Shown: one piece after another, positions 2,381 to 25,789 of the stretch
Layout of the letters: each line of letters begins with the position of its first letter
How positions within the stretch are numbered: position 1 is the stretch's first letter
Notes under the pieces: generated by a model
Database searches by the model: none
What the model was told of the DNA's origin: nothing
Seen by the model: the letters and a program-made list of their open reading frames with translations, nothing else
Made by a program: the position numbers and the translations under genes
Assembly: GCA_021083345.1 (NCBI GenBank)
Contig: JAJGRE010000001.1
Coordinates: 1,054,001 to 1,118,000 of the forward strand
DNA from: Calditrichales bacterium MX18-03
Lineage (GTDB): Bacteria; Bacillota; Clostridia; Lutisporales; Lutisporaceae
Direction: 5' to 3'
DNA length: 64,000 nucleotides

Positions 2381-2821
2381 TTAATCGTTGATATCTTCGC
2401 TCCAATGCCGCTGTGAAGATGCTCTGTTGAAGCTGAAAAAAAGCGCCTGGACCTGTTCGGTTTTCAAAAATGCAATCAGGCTCTCGATAGCCAGTATGGT
2501 AGACGAGCAGAGGTAGTGCTCCATGGCCTCCGCTTCCTTTGCTATGTCGCAATCACTATTGATGGTGCGCAAAAAATCCTGAAGCATGCTGTTTCTTCTG
2601 ACCAGCAGCACGCCCAGCCTGTCTCCCGCTTCTGTCAGTGTGATTCCCTCGTGCCGTTTGTATCGGATGTAGTCTTCATCGTTGAGTTTTTTCAAAGCTC
2701 TTACAACAGAAGGTGAAGAGACATTCAGCTTCGCTGCAATATCCCCTACCCGTACCTTGTCCTTTAAGAGGGACAACCGGTAGATTTCTTCCAAATAATC
2801 TTCCTGGCTTGGAGACAACAT
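2381..2821 (-). CDS. DtxR/MntR-family metal-dependent transcriptional regulator
   Basis: This 146-aa protein has the N-terminal winged HTH of the family (VRVGDIAAKLNVSSPSVVRALKKL) and a metal-binding/dimerisation domain. Compared by eye with Bacillus MntR, the ligands Asp8, Glu11 and the Glu-x-x-Glu-His group (EAMEHYL) are kept, but the position of MntR His77 is Asn (RRNSMLQDFL), so metal preference may differ. Start ATG at 2821 has AAAGGAAGAG upstream. It is divergent from a ZIP transporter, and the shared intergenic region has two copies of a 14-bp dyad. The inference is that it represses the transporter and possibly itself when metal is plentiful. Confidence 0.88.
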   Translation of the reverse strand: MLSPSQEDYLEEIYRLSLLKDKVRVGDIAAKLNVSSPSVVRALKKLNDEDYIRYKRHEGITLTEAGDRLGVLLVRRNSMLQDFLRTINSDCDIAKEAEAMEHYLCSSTILAIESLIAFLKTEQVQALFFSFNRASSQRHWSEDIND

Positions 2822-2928
2822 GGCACTCTTCCTTTCTCTGCTGATACGCTGCCCATTTCAGCGCTTCGTCGTTTTGCACAGGTCACCTTTCCATACCATC
2901 CGTCATATGATGGAATTAGGTCGAATTC

Positions 2929-8269: not shown

Positions 8270-8717
8270 CTACAGCTTCCTGGATACCGATTTCAACTGC
8301 ATGAACTGCACGAGATAATCGGGCCCTCCCGCTTTTGAATCTGTACCAGACATATTGAAGCCGCCGAAGGGATTGACTCCTACCAGCGCACCAGTGCATT
8401 TGCGGTTCAGGTACAGGTTTCCCACATGGAATTCTTTTTTTGCCCGGTCCAGCTTGTCACGGTTCCGCGAGAACACTGAGCCGGTCAAACCATATTCCGT
8501 ACCATAGGCAATATCCAGAGCCTGCTCATAATCCGCAATGATCGTAGGCTCTATGTAATATCCGTTCTTGCCGGTCTACCAGCTCTAAAGCCTTTCTCAT
8601 TGCTTCCCGGTTGATGTCTTTTGTAAAATCCGTCATTGCTTCATTGCAGAATTCGGGCAATGAACCTCTACTTTTTGCTGATTGGGCAGCATCCATTTTG
8701 AACACTCGACTTTCCAT
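8270..8717 (-). pseudogene. rocA: Remnant of 1-pyrroline-5-carboxylate dehydrogenase (two internal deletions)
   Basis: Three pieces of the roughly 515-aa enzyme remain. The N-terminal piece starts at ATG 8717 after AGGAGG and reads FCNEAMTDFTKDINREAM, typical of the family. At about 8572 the frame shifts into a piece reading [11 protein letters not shown], which lies after the catalytic centre. At about 8530 another 25 or so residues are missing before [19 protein letters not shown]..., which continues to the normal end with [24 protein letters not shown] and the TAG at 8270. The NAD-binding and catalytic regions are gone, so the gene cannot make active enzyme. The promoter and leader upstream look intact. 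Confidence 0.88.
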
Positions 8718-8743
8718 TCTTTTACCTCCTCTATCTGAATAAG

Positions 8744-8776
8744 CAAAAAACGCTCCCTCTATTCGAGAGGAAGCGC
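8744..8776 (-). terminator. Intrinsic terminator inside the pseudogene leader
   Basis: On the minus strand a 10-bp stem (CGCTTCCTCT with AGAGGGAGCG, one G-T pair) and a 5-nt loop are followed by six T residues. It lies between the leader structure and the AGGAGG of the pseudogene, the position expected for a transcription attenuator. Confidence 0.85.
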
Positions 8777-8789
8777 AGCAGCAGCGTAA

Positions 8790-8940
8790 AAAAACCGTCT
8801 TCTTGCGAAAACCGCAGCACAAATATACCTGTCTCAGGTACCTGCTGCTCCTTTCCAATGGGGAGGCACTGCTGTTTCCGGCAATACCCTGACGGTCCAT
8901 ATCCCATGAGGATGAACTTTTTAGGCACATGGACTCGGAG
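8790..8940 (-). ncRNA. Structured 5' leader, riboswitch-like (class not identified)
   Basis: The leader between the promoter (8957-8985) and the terminator (8744-8776) has several possible hairpins on the minus strand. These include a CCTAA...TATGG pair like an 11-nt tetraloop receptor, a GC-rich stem closed by a GAAA loop (GCCGGAAACAGC), CTCC-CCATTGGAAA-GGAG, and ACCTG-AGA-CAGGT. A tetraloop plus receptor is seen in several riboswitches, including c-di-GMP-I and Moco RNA. The text GCCTCCC...GGAG...AGGTACC reminds me of the Moco motif, but I could not confirm that. The downstream gene is a pseudogene. Confidence 0.55.
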
Positions 8941-8956
8941 CTGTGAAATTGTATAC

Positions 8957-8985
8957 ATTATAGAGCATTCCCTGCGCGCTGTCAA
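8957..8985 (-). promoter_or_regulatory. Consensus sigma-A promoter
   Basis: On the minus strand TTGACA (8980-8985) and TATAAT (8957-8962) are separated by exactly 17 bp, so both hexamers are perfect. Transcription should start near 8950 and run through the structured leader to the P5C dehydrogenase remnant. Confidence 0.92.
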
Positions 8986-9085
8986 TGCAAATACGTTCAG
9001 AAAATGAGTCTTTTGTCCTTTACCTTATGAATCAAATCCTATAAACTGAATAAAGAAACATTACACTTTGGGGAGGTTTATTATA

Positions 9086-9514
9086 ATGGGGGTTATGTAC
9101 ACACTGCTGGCAGGTATTTTTATCAGCCTGCAGGGAATTTTCAATACCAGAGCTGGAGAAAAAATCGGCATGTGGGAAACAACCACACTGGTCCATGGAC
9201 TGGGCTTCGCTGTCTCACTGTTGATCTGGCTTTTTGCGAGGGACGGAAGCTTCAGCCGCATCAACGAAGTCAATAAGCTCTATCTGGTTGGCGGTGCATT
9301 GGGTGTCATGATCATTTTCTGCGTTATGAAGAGCTTTGCCCTGCTGGGACCGACGCTGGCGGTTTCTATGCTTCTGGTAACGCAGCTTGTAATGGCTATG
9401 GCTATTGATGTGTTCGGACTGTTCGGGAGTCCGAGGATTTCACTGCACTTTACCAAGCCCTTAGGCGTCATCGTCATGATACTGGGTATCCTCCTTTTCA
9501 AGCTGAAAGGTTAG
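9086..9514 (+). CDS. YdcZ/DUF606 family DMT-type membrane protein
   Basis: The 142-aa protein has about five hydrophobic segments and the family features GVMYTLLAGIFISLQGIFNTRAG at the N-terminus and a C-terminal PLGVIVMILGILLF segment. DUF606 proteins are half-size members of the drug/metabolite transporter superfamily and often work in pairs; only one is seen here. Its substrate is unknown. Start ATG at 9086 is preceded by GGGGAGG; the longer frame from 9068 begins inside that site. It lies 100 bp beyond the divergent promoter of the P5C dehydrogenase remnant. Confidence 0.87.
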   Translation: MGVMYTLLAGIFISLQGIFNTRAGEKIGMWETTTLVHGLGFAVSLLIWLFARDGSFSRINEVNKLYLVGGALGVMIIFCVMKSFALLGPTLAVSMLLVTQLVMAMAIDVFGLFGSPRISLHFTKPLGVIVMILGILLFKLKG

Positions 9515-21168: not shown

Positions 21169-21323
21169 TGGCAGAGTAGGCTGTTATGCGTTAAGTGCCG
21201 GATGAACGGGAAGTTGACGCCCGGACGAAAAATCCTTGTGATTTGCGGTATGACAGCCGCATTCCGCTGTCACTTAATGAGCCCGATTCTCTTTAAGTGG
21301 CATATGTTTGCTGTTTAAAGAGA
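21169..21323 (+). ncRNA. Tetrahydrofolate (THF) riboswitch controlling folT
   Basis: The element has the THF class core: AGAGTAG after a P1 5' strand (TGGCAG, 21169-21174), the GCGTTAAGTG block, and a P1 3' strand (CTGTCA, 21267-21272). P2 pairs GGCTGTTAT (21179-21187) with ATGACAGCC (21250-21258). Downstream, CACTTAA (21271-21277) can pair with TTAAGTG (21293-21299), or TCTCTTTAA (21288-21296) can pair with TTAAAGAGA (21315-21323) next to the AGGAGGTG. The two hairpins exclude each other, so folate would switch translation. The folT gene downstream fits this known class. Confidence 0.9.
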
Positions 21324-21335
21324 GGAGGTGATTCC

Positions 21336-21848
21336 ATGAACAAGACGAGAACGCTTGTTTTTGTGAGCTTGCTGATTGCGATGGAAGTCATTTTTACACG
21401 CTTCCTGGCATTTCAGACCCCCATCATCCGAGTGGGCTTCGGTTTTATACCCATTGCCTTCGCAGGGATCCTTTTCGGACCTGTCATCGGCGGAGCGACA
21501 GCTGCTTTATCCGATATTATCGGAATGATGCTGTTCCCGAAGGGAGCCTATTTCCCGGGCTTTACGCTCAGCGCTTTTCTAACCGGTGCCAGCTTTGGGT
21601 TATTCCTTCACAAAAAACCGGTGAACCTCAAGAATGTCACCATTGCGGTGCTTGCCATCACAGTTGTCGTTGACTTGGCCCTCAATACCCTATGGCTTTC
21701 CATGATTACAGGCAAGGCTGTTTCGGTCCTGATGATGCCTAGAGTCATTAAGTCAGCCATCCTGCTGCCTATTCAAGTTGTGATCATACAGGTATTGTGG
21801 CGGTACATCGGTCATTACATCAACCAAAACGCTGCGCAAAATGCATAA
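21336..21848 (+). CDS. folT: Folate ECF transporter S component FolT
   Basis: The 170-aa membrane protein has about six TM segments. It shows the FolT-type text RFLAFQTPIIRVGFGFIPIAFAG, LFGPVIGGATAALSDIIGMMLFPKGAYFPGFTLSAFL and LNTLWLS. With an ECF energising module encoded elsewhere it would import folates. The start is ATG 21336 after AGAGGAGGTG; the longer frame from 21297 lies inside the riboswitch expression platform. The THF riboswitch upstream supports the folate assignment independently. A strong terminator follows at 21905. Confidence 0.94.
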   Translation: MNKTRTLVFVSLLIAMEVIFTRFLAFQTPIIRVGFGFIPIAFAGILFGPVIGGATAALSDIIGMMLFPKGAYFPGFTLSAFLTGASFGLFLHKKPVNLKNVTIAVLAITVVVDLALNTLWLSMITGKAVSVLMMPRVIKSAILLPIQVVIIQVLWRYIGHYINQNAAQNA

Positions 21849-23660: not shown

Positions 23661-24203
23661 TTGGACAAATCATTGGTAAGGAAATGGGAGACAACGGGCT
23701 TTTTTTTCATCGTTCTGGCAGGGACGCTACTCCACTTTTGCTTTGAGTGGAGCGGATTCTGGAAACCCTGTGCTTTGATCTGTGCGGTCAATGAAAGCGT
23801 ATGGGAGCACCTCAAGCTGGCCTTCTGGCCGTCAGTTGCTCTGACGGTATTGGAATACTTCTCCTATGGCAAAAGCTATGATAACCTCCTCCCAGGCAAA
23901 ATACTCTCTTTATATATTTCACCTTCTGCAATCGTCTTTATGTTTTACGCGTATACCGCGTTACTAGGAAAGCATTTGCTCTGGATGGACATACTCATTT
24001 TCGTGCTGGCTGTGCTTTTTGCCCAGCTTGTCAGCTATCGGATCACAGTATCACGCCATGATTACTCCAAATATAAAGGCTTGTCGGTGATATTGTTTCT
24101 GATCATCACTGCTGCCTTCTGCCTCATGACCTATTTCCCGCCTGAGCTGCCGCTTTTCCAGGATCCAAACAGCAGCCAATATGGCATTCCGGCAAAAAAA
24201 TAG
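23661..24203 (+). CDS. DUF6512-like integral membrane protein
   Basis: The protein of about 180 aa has five or six hydrophobic helices and the recognisable stretch LLHFCFEWSGFWKPCALICAVNESVWEHLKLAFWPSV. Members are uncharacterised. The start is uncertain. TTG at 23661 has GGAGG at 8 nt and puts KWETTGFFFIVLAGTLLHF near the N-terminus, as in the family; an ATG at 23613 would add 16 residues but has a poor ribosome binding site. It ends directly at the left terminus of the ACCATA-rich element. Confidence 0.75.
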   Translation: MDKSLVRKWETTGFFFIVLAGTLLHFCFEWSGFWKPCALICAVNESVWEHLKLAFWPSVALTVLEYFSYGKSYDNLLPGKILSLYISPSAIVFMFYAYTALLGKHLLWMDILIFVLAVLFAQLVSYRITVSRHDYSKYKGLSVILFLIITAAFCLMTYFPPELPLFQDPNSSQYGIPAKK

Positions 24204-24205
24204 AA

Positions 24206-24589
24206 GGGAACGTAACAATCTACCTTGCACCACCATAGATCGCTTATTGCCCAGCTATGATCTTCCGACCATAACCAAACAGTTCACCACCCATGATGAT
24301 GGTTCGTTCGACCATACGAAATACTTGCATAGCTGTATGCAACCTCTCGGCTGCATACAACCAAGAGTCTAAGACCTTCAGCACTCCGTATGATCTTCGC
24401 TCGACCCTATATGATAGATTGGGACCCTATTATAATCAAGGATGATCGACCATAATAGAACCTTTCTCAACCATATAGAATCTTCCCTCCGACTGCATAC
24501 CAGCCCTATGACCAGCATGCAATCTTTGGCCGACCCATATACGACCCGAATGGATCATATATGAGTCTTGGCTCAACTGTTACGTACCC
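24206..24589. repeat. MITE-like noncoding element with ACCATA-rich interior
   Basis: This 384-bp gene-free segment is bounded by near-matching inverted ends: GGGAACGTAACA at 24206-24217 and TGTTACGTACCC at 24578-24589 (one mismatch in 12). The interior is full of short related words: ACCATA five times, GACCC(A/T)(A/T) three times, and GACC nine times on the plus strand. Perfect small hairpins also occur, such as TTGCATA-GCTG-TATGCAA at 24325-24342. No ORF with a ribosome binding site is seen. It sits between two convergent genes, immediately after a stop codon. A non-autonomous mobile element or a structured RNA are the likely explanations. Confidence 0.6.
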
Positions 24590-24670
24590 TACGCTATTAT
24601 ATTAACCTGATTATGTGCGGCCTATACCTTCCATTTTTTTCAATTTGCAGCAGCTTTGACGCACCGTGAA

Positions 24671-25789
24671 CTAATAGAGTCGATTGTAGATCCCGTATAT
24701 TTCTTCCCTGGACAGGGGGACATAATTGTTTCCAAGAAGCCGCTGCTGCGTATTGATGACAGCCTCCGTAAAGCGAGCGATTTCATCTTCCTTCATGCCG
24801 TACTCCCTGAGGGGCTTCTTTGGCAGCAATTTGTTCAAAAGGTTATCCAGCTCGTTATAGACGTTTTCTGTGCTCTCCAGTCCAAGCATCTCTGCAATCA
24901 AGGCATTGACTGATTTTATCTTTCCATCGGGGTTCAGGCGGTTATAAGTCTTGAATACTTCTGTAAAAAACTCACAGTTTGCTTCACCATGGGGGACATG
25001 ATATTTGCCTCCCAATGGATACGACAGCGCATGCACAGCACCAACTCCGGCATTGCCGAAGGCTACGCCTGCATAATTGCTGGCTGTCAGGAAGTCCTCA
25101 ATGATCTGCAACCTGTGTTCCTGCCCTTTCTCAAGGATTTCCATATAGCCTTTGATGATCATTTCTATGGCTTTTATACTGAAAAGCTCGGTATAACAGT
25201 TGGCTCTGGGGGAAACATAGGACTCAATGGCATGGATCAGCGAATCCACTGAGCTATATACAAAGAACTTATATGGCAAGCCCTTTACCAGCTCTGGAAT
25301 TAATACGGCATAATCCGCATTCAATTCTTCTGCACCGAGACCCATTTTAGTCTGTTTTTCCTTGATCTCCACAATGGACAAGTTGGTCACTTCACTGCCC
25401 GTGCCGCAGGTTGTCGGAACGATGATCAGCTGTTTCTCCTTTACCAGGGGTACCTTCCTTTCAAAAAGATCCAGTACACAATGGCTGCCTTTCAGAACAA
25501 GCAGCTTTGCGATGTCGATGACCGTGCCGCCTCCGATGGCAAAAACCCGTTCATAGTGTACATCCTTCAGATCTGCAAAGATCTGATCGATCATCACGTT
25601 GGACGGTTCCGACGTACCGTATTTCTCCTGGAACAAAAACGTTGCGCTCAAGTTAAGCGGTCTCATAAAGGCATCATAGAAGAATTCATGGGTCAATACC
25701 AGGTCATCCGCACCGATATTGAAAAAACCATTGAATTCCCCGACATCATTAAACCGGTGAATCTGCGGCACCAGTTGAAAAAGCTTCAT
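24671..25789 (-). CDS. 4-Hydroxybutyrate dehydrogenase (iron-containing alcohol dehydrogenase family)
   Basis: The 372-aa protein aligns by memory along its whole length with the Clostridium kluyveri/C. aminobutyricum enzyme: FQEKYG, AIGGGTVIDIAK, IIVPTTCGTGSEVTN, GVGAVHALSYPLGG, YHVPHGEAN and the near-identical KPLREYGMKE. The metal-site His residues are in AVHAL and VPHGE. It interconverts 4-hydroxybutyrate and succinate semialdehyde with NAD(H). ATG 25789 has AAGGAGG 8 nt upstream. It lies about 11 kb from the CoA-transferase and dehydratase genes that act next in the pathway, in a separate transcription unit. Confidence 0.93.
   Translation of the reverse strand: MKLFQLVPQIHRFNDVGEFNGFFNIGADDLVLTHEFFYDAFMRPLNLSATFLFQEKYGTSEPSNVMIDQIFADLKDVHYERVFAIGGGTVIDIAKLLVLKGSHCVLDLFERKVPLVKEKQLIIVPTTCGTGSEVTNLSIVEIKEKQTKMGLGAEELNADYAVLIPELVKGLPYKFFVYSSVDSLIHAIESYVSPRANCYTELFSIKAIEMIIKGYMEILEKGQEHRLQIIEDFLTASNYAGVAFGNAGVGAVHALSYPLGGKYHVPHGEANCEFFTEVFKTYNRLNPDGKIKSVNALIAEMLGLESTENVYNELDNLLNKLLPKKPLREYGMKEDEIARFTEAVINTQQRLLGNNYVPLSREEIYGIYNRLY

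Follow-up and report, generated by a model that had tools for sequence, protein, structure and literature searches.

We report that a 384-bp element (positions 24206-24589) in a 64,000-nucleotide stretch of the genome of Calditrichales bacterium MX18-03 (contig JAJGRE010000001.1, positions 1,054,001 to 1,118,000; the whole stretch is hereafter called the window) is the minus-strand gene of a large, multi-armed noncoding RNA. The fold of this RNA is kept by compensatory change across deeply separated lineages of the Bacillota. Taking promoter, distribution, and shape together, we consider it probable that the RNA is independently transcribed, expressed in the forespore, and architectural in function, as a ribonucleoprotein (RNP) scaffold or a self-assembling RNA.

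A multi-armed RNA kept by compensatory change

The original prediction, made from the letters of the window, had drawn the boundaries of the element well and had correctly placed it between two convergent genes: it starts 2 bp past the stop codon of a DUF6512 gene (24203, plus strand) and faces an iron-containing alcohol dehydrogenase (Fe-ADH) gene (24671-25789, minus strand). Its ends, GGGAACGTAACA and TGTTACGTACCC, are indeed inverted copies with one mismatch, and the longest stop-to-stop stretch within it is 60 amino acids (aa), in agreement with the claim that it contains no open reading frame (ORF). The repetition of two short words was also borne out, since ACCATA occurs 5 times and GACC 9 times, against shuffle means of 0.34 and 2.7, and 0/1000 dinucleotide shuffles equaled either count; on the RNA strand these words read UAUGGU and GGUC, sequences found repeatedly at the 3' feet of the arms. 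As for the "several small perfect hairpins" of the prediction, hairpins are present but their extent was understated: the minus strand forms eight helices of 15 to 17 bp and a closing helix of 19 bp, which the earlier reader could see only partly because many of the pairs are G-U on that strand.

Folding of the minus strand yielded -190 kcal/mol (z = -13.3, with 0/100 shuffles as good), versus -90.4 kcal/mol (z = -2.7) for the plus strand. The strands differ because the G-U pairs exist only on the RNA strand, and this asymmetry therefore marks the element as an RNA gene, not a DNA palindrome. In all 49 copies compared, the predicted RNA strand folded better than its complement. The RNA, about 390 nt long here, is closed by helix P1 and carries five long arms, P2 to P6, on a multi-branch junction; in P4, P5, and P6, a small internal loop separates a 15- to 16-bp proximal helix from a 15- to 17-bp distal one. 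The parts are listed below, all on the minus strand; percentages are alignment cells that pair in alignment A5 (see below), the figures for P4 to P6 being those of the proximal and distal helices.

24194-24592, minus: RNA gene; the ends are predicted from sequence, the 5' end near 24590 and the 3' end near the T-run
24204-24592, minus: match to covariance model R1, 385 bits
about 24194-24627, minus: putative transcription unit, including promoter and 3' T-run
24596-24627, minus: predicted forespore-type promoter, with -35 box GTATA (24627-24623), 15-nt spacer, and -10 box GGTTAATATAAT (24607-24596); sigma-F/sigma-G by consensus
24570-24592, minus: 5' strand of P1, 19 bp including the inner GCC/GGU; the right inverted end of the original prediction
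24203-24224, minus: 3' strand of P1, pairing with 24570-24592; the left inverted end of the original prediction (P1, 98.6%)
24532-24567, minus: arm P2, a 16-bp hairpin (97.5%)
24528-24529 with 24486-24487, minus: clamp around P3, an invariant 2-bp CC/GG
24491-24524, minus: arm P3, a 15-bp hairpin (98.5%)
24403-24482, minus: arm P4, helices of 15 bp (proximal) and 17 bp (distal) separated by an internal loop (95.7%/95.5%)
24396-24402, minus: P4/P5 junction, consensus GAGCUAA, the most conserved unpaired stretch
24310-24395, minus: arm P5, helices of 16 bp (proximal) and 15 bp (distal, ending in GNRA loop GAGA), with a small lineage-specific hairpin in the internal loop between them (96.2%/97.4%)
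24228-24301, minus: arm P6, two 15-bp helices (proximal and distal) on either side of an internal loop, the distal one capped by GNRA loop GGAA (97.0%/97.5%)
24194-24200, minus: run of seven T past P1, a possible terminator tract, antisense over the last DUF6512 codons

A BLASTN search for further copies, as proposed with the original prediction, returned none in the 4.69-Mb genome of origin (the next match is 21 bp, E = 1.56) and succeeded in relatives: the element is present, once per genome and with 69 to 79% identity, in 6/22 genomes of its own family, that of the window included. We aligned these six sequences with MAFFT, independently of any structure model. In this alignment, 97.0% of cells pair and 37 of the 146 pairs changed on both sides, while sliding the partners by 1 to 3 columns reduced pairing to 36 to 42%. 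A larger alignment, A5 (80 rows, 78 of them distinct and three being short antisense matches), was fitted to a covariance model and is hence biased towards the structure; 117/146 of its pairs show compensatory changes and 96.9% of its cells pair (34 to 41% with slid partners), and none of 500 shuffles equaled the observed values on any of five measures. Compensatory changes thus exceed the controls, as expected of a structured RNA gene.

Conservation was evaluated on 121 aligned rows, reduced to 86 nonredundant members by removing rows >90% identical. Average conservation is higher at unpaired junction and internal positions (0.77) than at paired ones (0.69), six of the seven GAGCUAA positions reach 0.95 to 1.00 (the fifth, 0.76), and P5 and P6 carry GNRA-like loops. 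The length of the RNA has a median of 402 nt (10th to 90th percentile, 374 to 462), with insertions concentrated in loops, and the same fold is found throughout a copy GC content of 0.25 to 0.60.

Distribution of the RNA and its relation to sporulation

The covariance model R1, built from the six family sequences, matched 41/391 genomes sampled from the class and 144/398 sampled from the phylum. Many of the matches have E < 1e-40 over the full model; at the weak end are short or degenerate ones, such as G591 (E = 0.0072). Of 250 genomes sampled from the class of Tepidibacillus, 11 match, including two seeds (G777 and G778) and a weak match of 34 nt (G866). When named genomes were searched with a degenerate DNA pattern, at least 120 stretches turned up, and R1 confirmed 75 of the 80 listed; the other five come from a Methylobacterium and from one bin each of "Proteobacteria", Pirellulaceae, Kiritimatiellae, and Clostridia. 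Carriers include Desulfosporosinus, Pelotomaculum, Desulforamulus, Thermoanaerobacterium (for example, T. saccharolyticum), Petroclostridium, Caldicoprobacter, and Clostridium polyendosporum, as well as Propionispora and Lucifera among the Negativicutes. One copy per genome is the rule; a few genomes have two to four, with three in Propionispora and four in Lucifera.

Some loci depart from this plan. Locus L054 contains tandem copies (8343-8759 and 8866-9284) separated by 106 nt, each with a promoter-like sequence. Three shortened or degenerate copies (L079:8829-9104, L080:8849-9134, and L082:8862-9014) miss whole arms, which suggests that arms can be lost as units. With regard to plasmids and phages as a source, blastn with the window copy and two others gave no match there, yet the pattern scan of IMG/VR, in which R1 confirmed two of four stretches, yielded a prophage copy (L118:2192-2569, minus strand; the same DNA occurs in L119). 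This copy is flanked by the terminase large-subunit gene on one side and a portal gene split into two ORFs on the other, and it has a forespore-like promoter and a terminator of its own; the prophage thus apparently carries a gene that is switched on in the forespore.

We then compared the RNA with cataloged families, using the 4227 models of Rfam 15. At gathering level, the window matched only the tetrahydrofolate (THF) and molybdenum cofactor (Moco) riboswitches, both off the RNA, and region 24100-24700 searched at E <= 5 gave just one microRNA (miRNA) and one long noncoding RNA (lncRNA) model far below their cutoffs. Neither the 19 distant loci scanned at E <= 0.1 nor the 17 further loci scanned at gathering level had a match over the RNA; a subthreshold STnc490 match (E = 0.076) in one locus, L034, lies outside it. 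These negatives apply to the window copy and the 36 loci, a subset of the copies, and for the copies scanned a known Rfam family is ruled out. Our literature search, whose coverage left out most subscription papers, found no paper recognizable as describing this RNA. The RNA is a member of none of the known families that could be tested and constitutes a new family, of a known kind (large structured bacterial RNAs) and with an unusual trait, its predicted forespore promoter. As to the two riboswitches, the THF riboswitch (21170-21271, plus strand) precedes the substrate gene of an energy-coupling factor (ECF) transporter (21297-21848), and the molybdenum/tungsten cofactor riboswitch is at 8832-8952 (minus strand).

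We next considered sporulation, with SpoIVA (PF09547) as the marker. SpoIVA was found in 336 of the 398 genomes of the phylum draw and in 140 of the 144 that are RNA positive, the two lists being compared by eye. The RNA is thus nearly restricted to genomes with spoIVA, a count that stands uncorrected for phylogeny. No RNA copy was detected in 196/336 SpoIVA-positive genomes, and the RNA is therefore dispensable for sporulation in general.

The original prediction had likened the element to a miniature inverted-repeat transposable element (MITE), and the inverted ends without an ORF would suit a MITE or small mobile repeat, as would the prophage homologue flanked by terminase and portal genes and the few genomes with two to four copies. 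However, the element is single copy in its genome, no target duplication is visible in the flanks inspected, and the inverted ends are an RNA helix kept by compensatory changes, which affect 117 of the 146 pairs over long evolutionary distances. Moreover, the promoter is conserved at a fixed distance, and copies of one lineage share flanks in the way that inherited genes do. As far as these data go, a MITE or transposon relic is thus refuted by copy number, ends, and covariation, and we find such an origin hardly credible. The prediction itself had named a single copy with random-like words as what would speak against it; the copy is single, whereas the word counts are far from random. Its guess of a protein- or RNA-binding scaffold pointed in the right direction, in that the element is itself a structured RNA.

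Putative transcription unit and neighboring genes

The RNA probably forms a transcription unit of its own: a promoter would lie immediately upstream of P1, and a T-run or intrinsic terminator immediately past it. Our promoter set comprised 112 upstream regions: 49 copies, plus 63 of the 77 sense pattern matches (14 were dropped as duplicate loci or contig-end cuts); removing near-identical upstreams left 103. Upstreams from Bacilli were viewed only, outside the counts, and L271, whose locus is cut at a contig end, was left out. The DNA upstream of the 112 copies displays a GNATA box, a spacer of about 15 nt, and then a GGNNATAATA-type box, whose end is 2 to 9 nt before the model start. Expressed as a pattern written after the fact from these sequences (G[ACT]AT[AGT], 14 to 18 nt, [GCT]NNA[ACT]N[ACT]TA), this arrangement occurs in 72/103 nonredundant upstreams, compared to a mean of 5.4 and a maximum of 12 in 40 shuffle sets. 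The same pattern was found in 7/103 of the reverse complements, in 98/2058 GC-matched windows of the same loci, and in 47/558 upstreams of other ORFs, and in 71 of the 72 positive copies it ends 2 to 9 nt from the model start. A sigma-A pattern was present in 3/103 upstreams and a sigma-E pattern in 0/103.

GNATA is a form of the -35 element recognized by sigma-F and sigma-G. By consensus, the boxes and their spacing of about 15 nt match those of the forespore regulons, as read through the post hoc pattern. In C. difficile and B. subtilis, the -35 and -10 elements are similar for the two factors, and the flank of the -10 box shows a conserved G before it for sigma-F and a conserved A after it for sigma-G (PMC3789822). 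As a control, we scored genes for small acid-soluble spore proteins (SASP) with a matrix trained on the RNA promoters: 30 SASP upstreams from ten RNA-bearing genomes had a median of 8.9, versus 5.1 for 540 other ORFs (p = 3.4e-6). Because the predicted promoter is of the forespore sigma-F/sigma-G type, the RNA would be made in the developing spore; this reading fits its near restriction to spoIVA genomes, and from promoter and distribution we infer that the RNA is expressed in the forespore. Downstream, 51/102 copies have a T4 tract within 20 nt of the RNA, compared to a mean of 15 for random windows taken in sets of 103; 32/102 copies have a hairpin with T after it (an uncontrolled count). 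The motif TTACCA occurs just upstream of the -35 box in 23/107 nonredundant upstreams at a few fixed offsets (for example, in L066, L067, L129, and L134; again uncontrolled) and is possibly a regulator site.

The RNA could instead be a cis-acting 3' element, either the 3' untranslated region (3'-UTR) or terminator of the Fe-ADH gene or a regulator antisense to the DUF6512 gene: in the window it begins 82 nt past the stop codon of Fe-ADH, on the strand of that gene, and borders the DUF6512 stop in antisense orientation. Yet the neighbors differ among lineages and even within its own family (DUF6512, lipoprotein, deformylase, or LysM genes), the upstream gene is on the other strand at 21/49 copies, and the RNA appears to have its own promoter. 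We therefore judge a role as a cis element very unlikely.

A conserved partner gene did not emerge either, as the 49 copies have no universal neighbor; the RNA therefore seems to act in trans. The most widespread neighbor family, which we read as a MocR-type aminotransferase and which belongs to a large superfamily, is near 12/49 copies at scattered positions. Five copies of family f4 share an upstream block. A dipeptidase-like gene is convergent and 5 to 51 nt downstream at five copies, and 4.3 kb away at a sixth (families f16, f53, f75, and f79); because this gene is on the other strand, we take the shared locus as a sign of inheritance and not of a functional partner. A tRNA lies within 1 kb of 9/112 copies, which is not striking. 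In Propionispora (L123), a 6S RNA (RF00013) follows one copy by about 130 nt on the same strand (2198-2370 and 2504-2876, minus strand).

Proposed role in the forespore

We propose that the RNA, made in the forespore, would act in trans as an architectural RNA, forming an RNP scaffold or a self-assembling particle. This proposal is based on the shape of the molecule, because nearly all of it is base paired, the arm stems have near-constant length, the central junction has conserved unpaired positions, and two distal arms end in GNRA loops. Conserved unpaired junction positions are likewise seen in RNAs with a compact core or with a bound protein. Either scaffolding or self-assembly may apply, and the data fit both equally. 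This architectural role in trans is the least certain step and, taken alone, we place it somewhat short of an even chance. One specific version, which we regard as rather unlikely, is that the length-locked arms and GNRA loops build a homo-oligomer or large RNP that is packed in the spore core and aids the establishment or survival of dormancy.

Several observations weigh against the proposal of a forespore architectural RNA. Sixteen of the 22 genomes of its own family, some of them near complete, have no RNA, as do the 196 SpoIVA-positive genomes noted above; some copies are degenerate and one resides in a prophage. The association of RNA and SpoIVA (Fisher's test, p = 8e-9) ignores phylogeny, leaving kinship uncorrected, and four RNA-positive genomes have no detected SpoIVA: G468 and G512, whose RNA hits are weak, and G623 and G669, which are 75% and 61% complete. 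Concerning the promoter, the pattern and the matrix derive from the same copies on which they were scored, and the SASP control is modest, with 17/30 upstreams scoring >=8 and 13/30 below.

The main rival is base pairing with mRNAs, as described for the forespore small RNAs (sRNAs) of Bacillus, in which case the structure would serve mainly for stability. CsfG of B. subtilis is described as a forespore sRNA under sigma-F and sigma-G with a C-rich region and a structure similar to RoxS and FsrA (PMC8216469, PMC9147052). Likewise, Bvs196 of B. velezensis is described as forespore specific, controlled by sigma-F/sigma-G, structured, about 300 nt long, and equipped with its own promoter and terminator; its gene lies between hinT and ecsA, and base pairing with mRNA is reported (PMC9147052). 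The predicted promoter type of our RNA is the same as in these two. However, long helices take up almost the entire RNA, its conserved unpaired parts are short junction segments that include no CsfG-like C-rich region, and the structure of the arms is conserved while their sequence changes, which therefore favors shape over pairing. An antisense-type sRNA is thus unlikely in our view. By description, the RNA is also set apart from both: it shares with CsfG the predicted place and time of expression but lacks a C-rich unpaired consensus, and it shares with Bvs196 forespore control, structure, and a putative promoter and terminator of its own, whereas Bvs196 comes from Bacillus and from the hinT/ecsA location rather than a DUF6512/Fe-ADH one, the RNA here being found in the 11/250 Tepidibacillus-class genomes, two of them seeds.

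A catalytic RNA of the spore, either a ribozyme or a processing substrate, would agree with the large size, the multi-branch core, and the highly conserved junction nucleotides, in which it resembles catalytic RNAs broadly. Against this, no ribozyme family matched in the Rfam scans of the copies scanned, and we saw no context for self-cleavage or splicing; both ends lie in a continuous P1 with promoter and T-run outside. We consider catalysis highly improbable.

Other large RNAs resemble our candidate architectural RNA in scale. The raiA motif RNA is an Rfam-listed family of about 205 nt. Its structure differs from the one described here, and the scanned copies had no raiA match. The raiA motif RNA (ModT) is likewise a widespread structured RNA of the Bacillota with a reported link to sporulation (PMC11706538, PMC12286853). 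OLE, ROOL, and GOLLD are likewise large, elaborate, conserved, and independently placed bacterial RNAs without a settled biochemical function (PMC12286853). The scanned copies matched none of their Rfam models, and the RNA here, about 400 nt long, has an octopus-like multi-branch plan and a predicted promoter of forespore type. By analogy, it would work like CsfG and Bvs196 in place and time, and like OLE, ROOL, GOLLD, and raiA in size and elaborateness.

Carried by 144 of the 398 phylum genomes sampled, roughly a third, and outside Rfam 15 as scanned, the RNA would rank among the most widespread uncataloged RNA families. Its predicted forespore promoter would tell where and when it is made, information that is missing for most large RNAs of unknown function. 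If the forespore reading is true, the endospore program, known mostly through its proteins, includes a conserved large RNA, and the particle, should it exist, would be an RNA-based endospore component common to monoderm, Clostridia-type spore formers and to the diderm Negativicutes.
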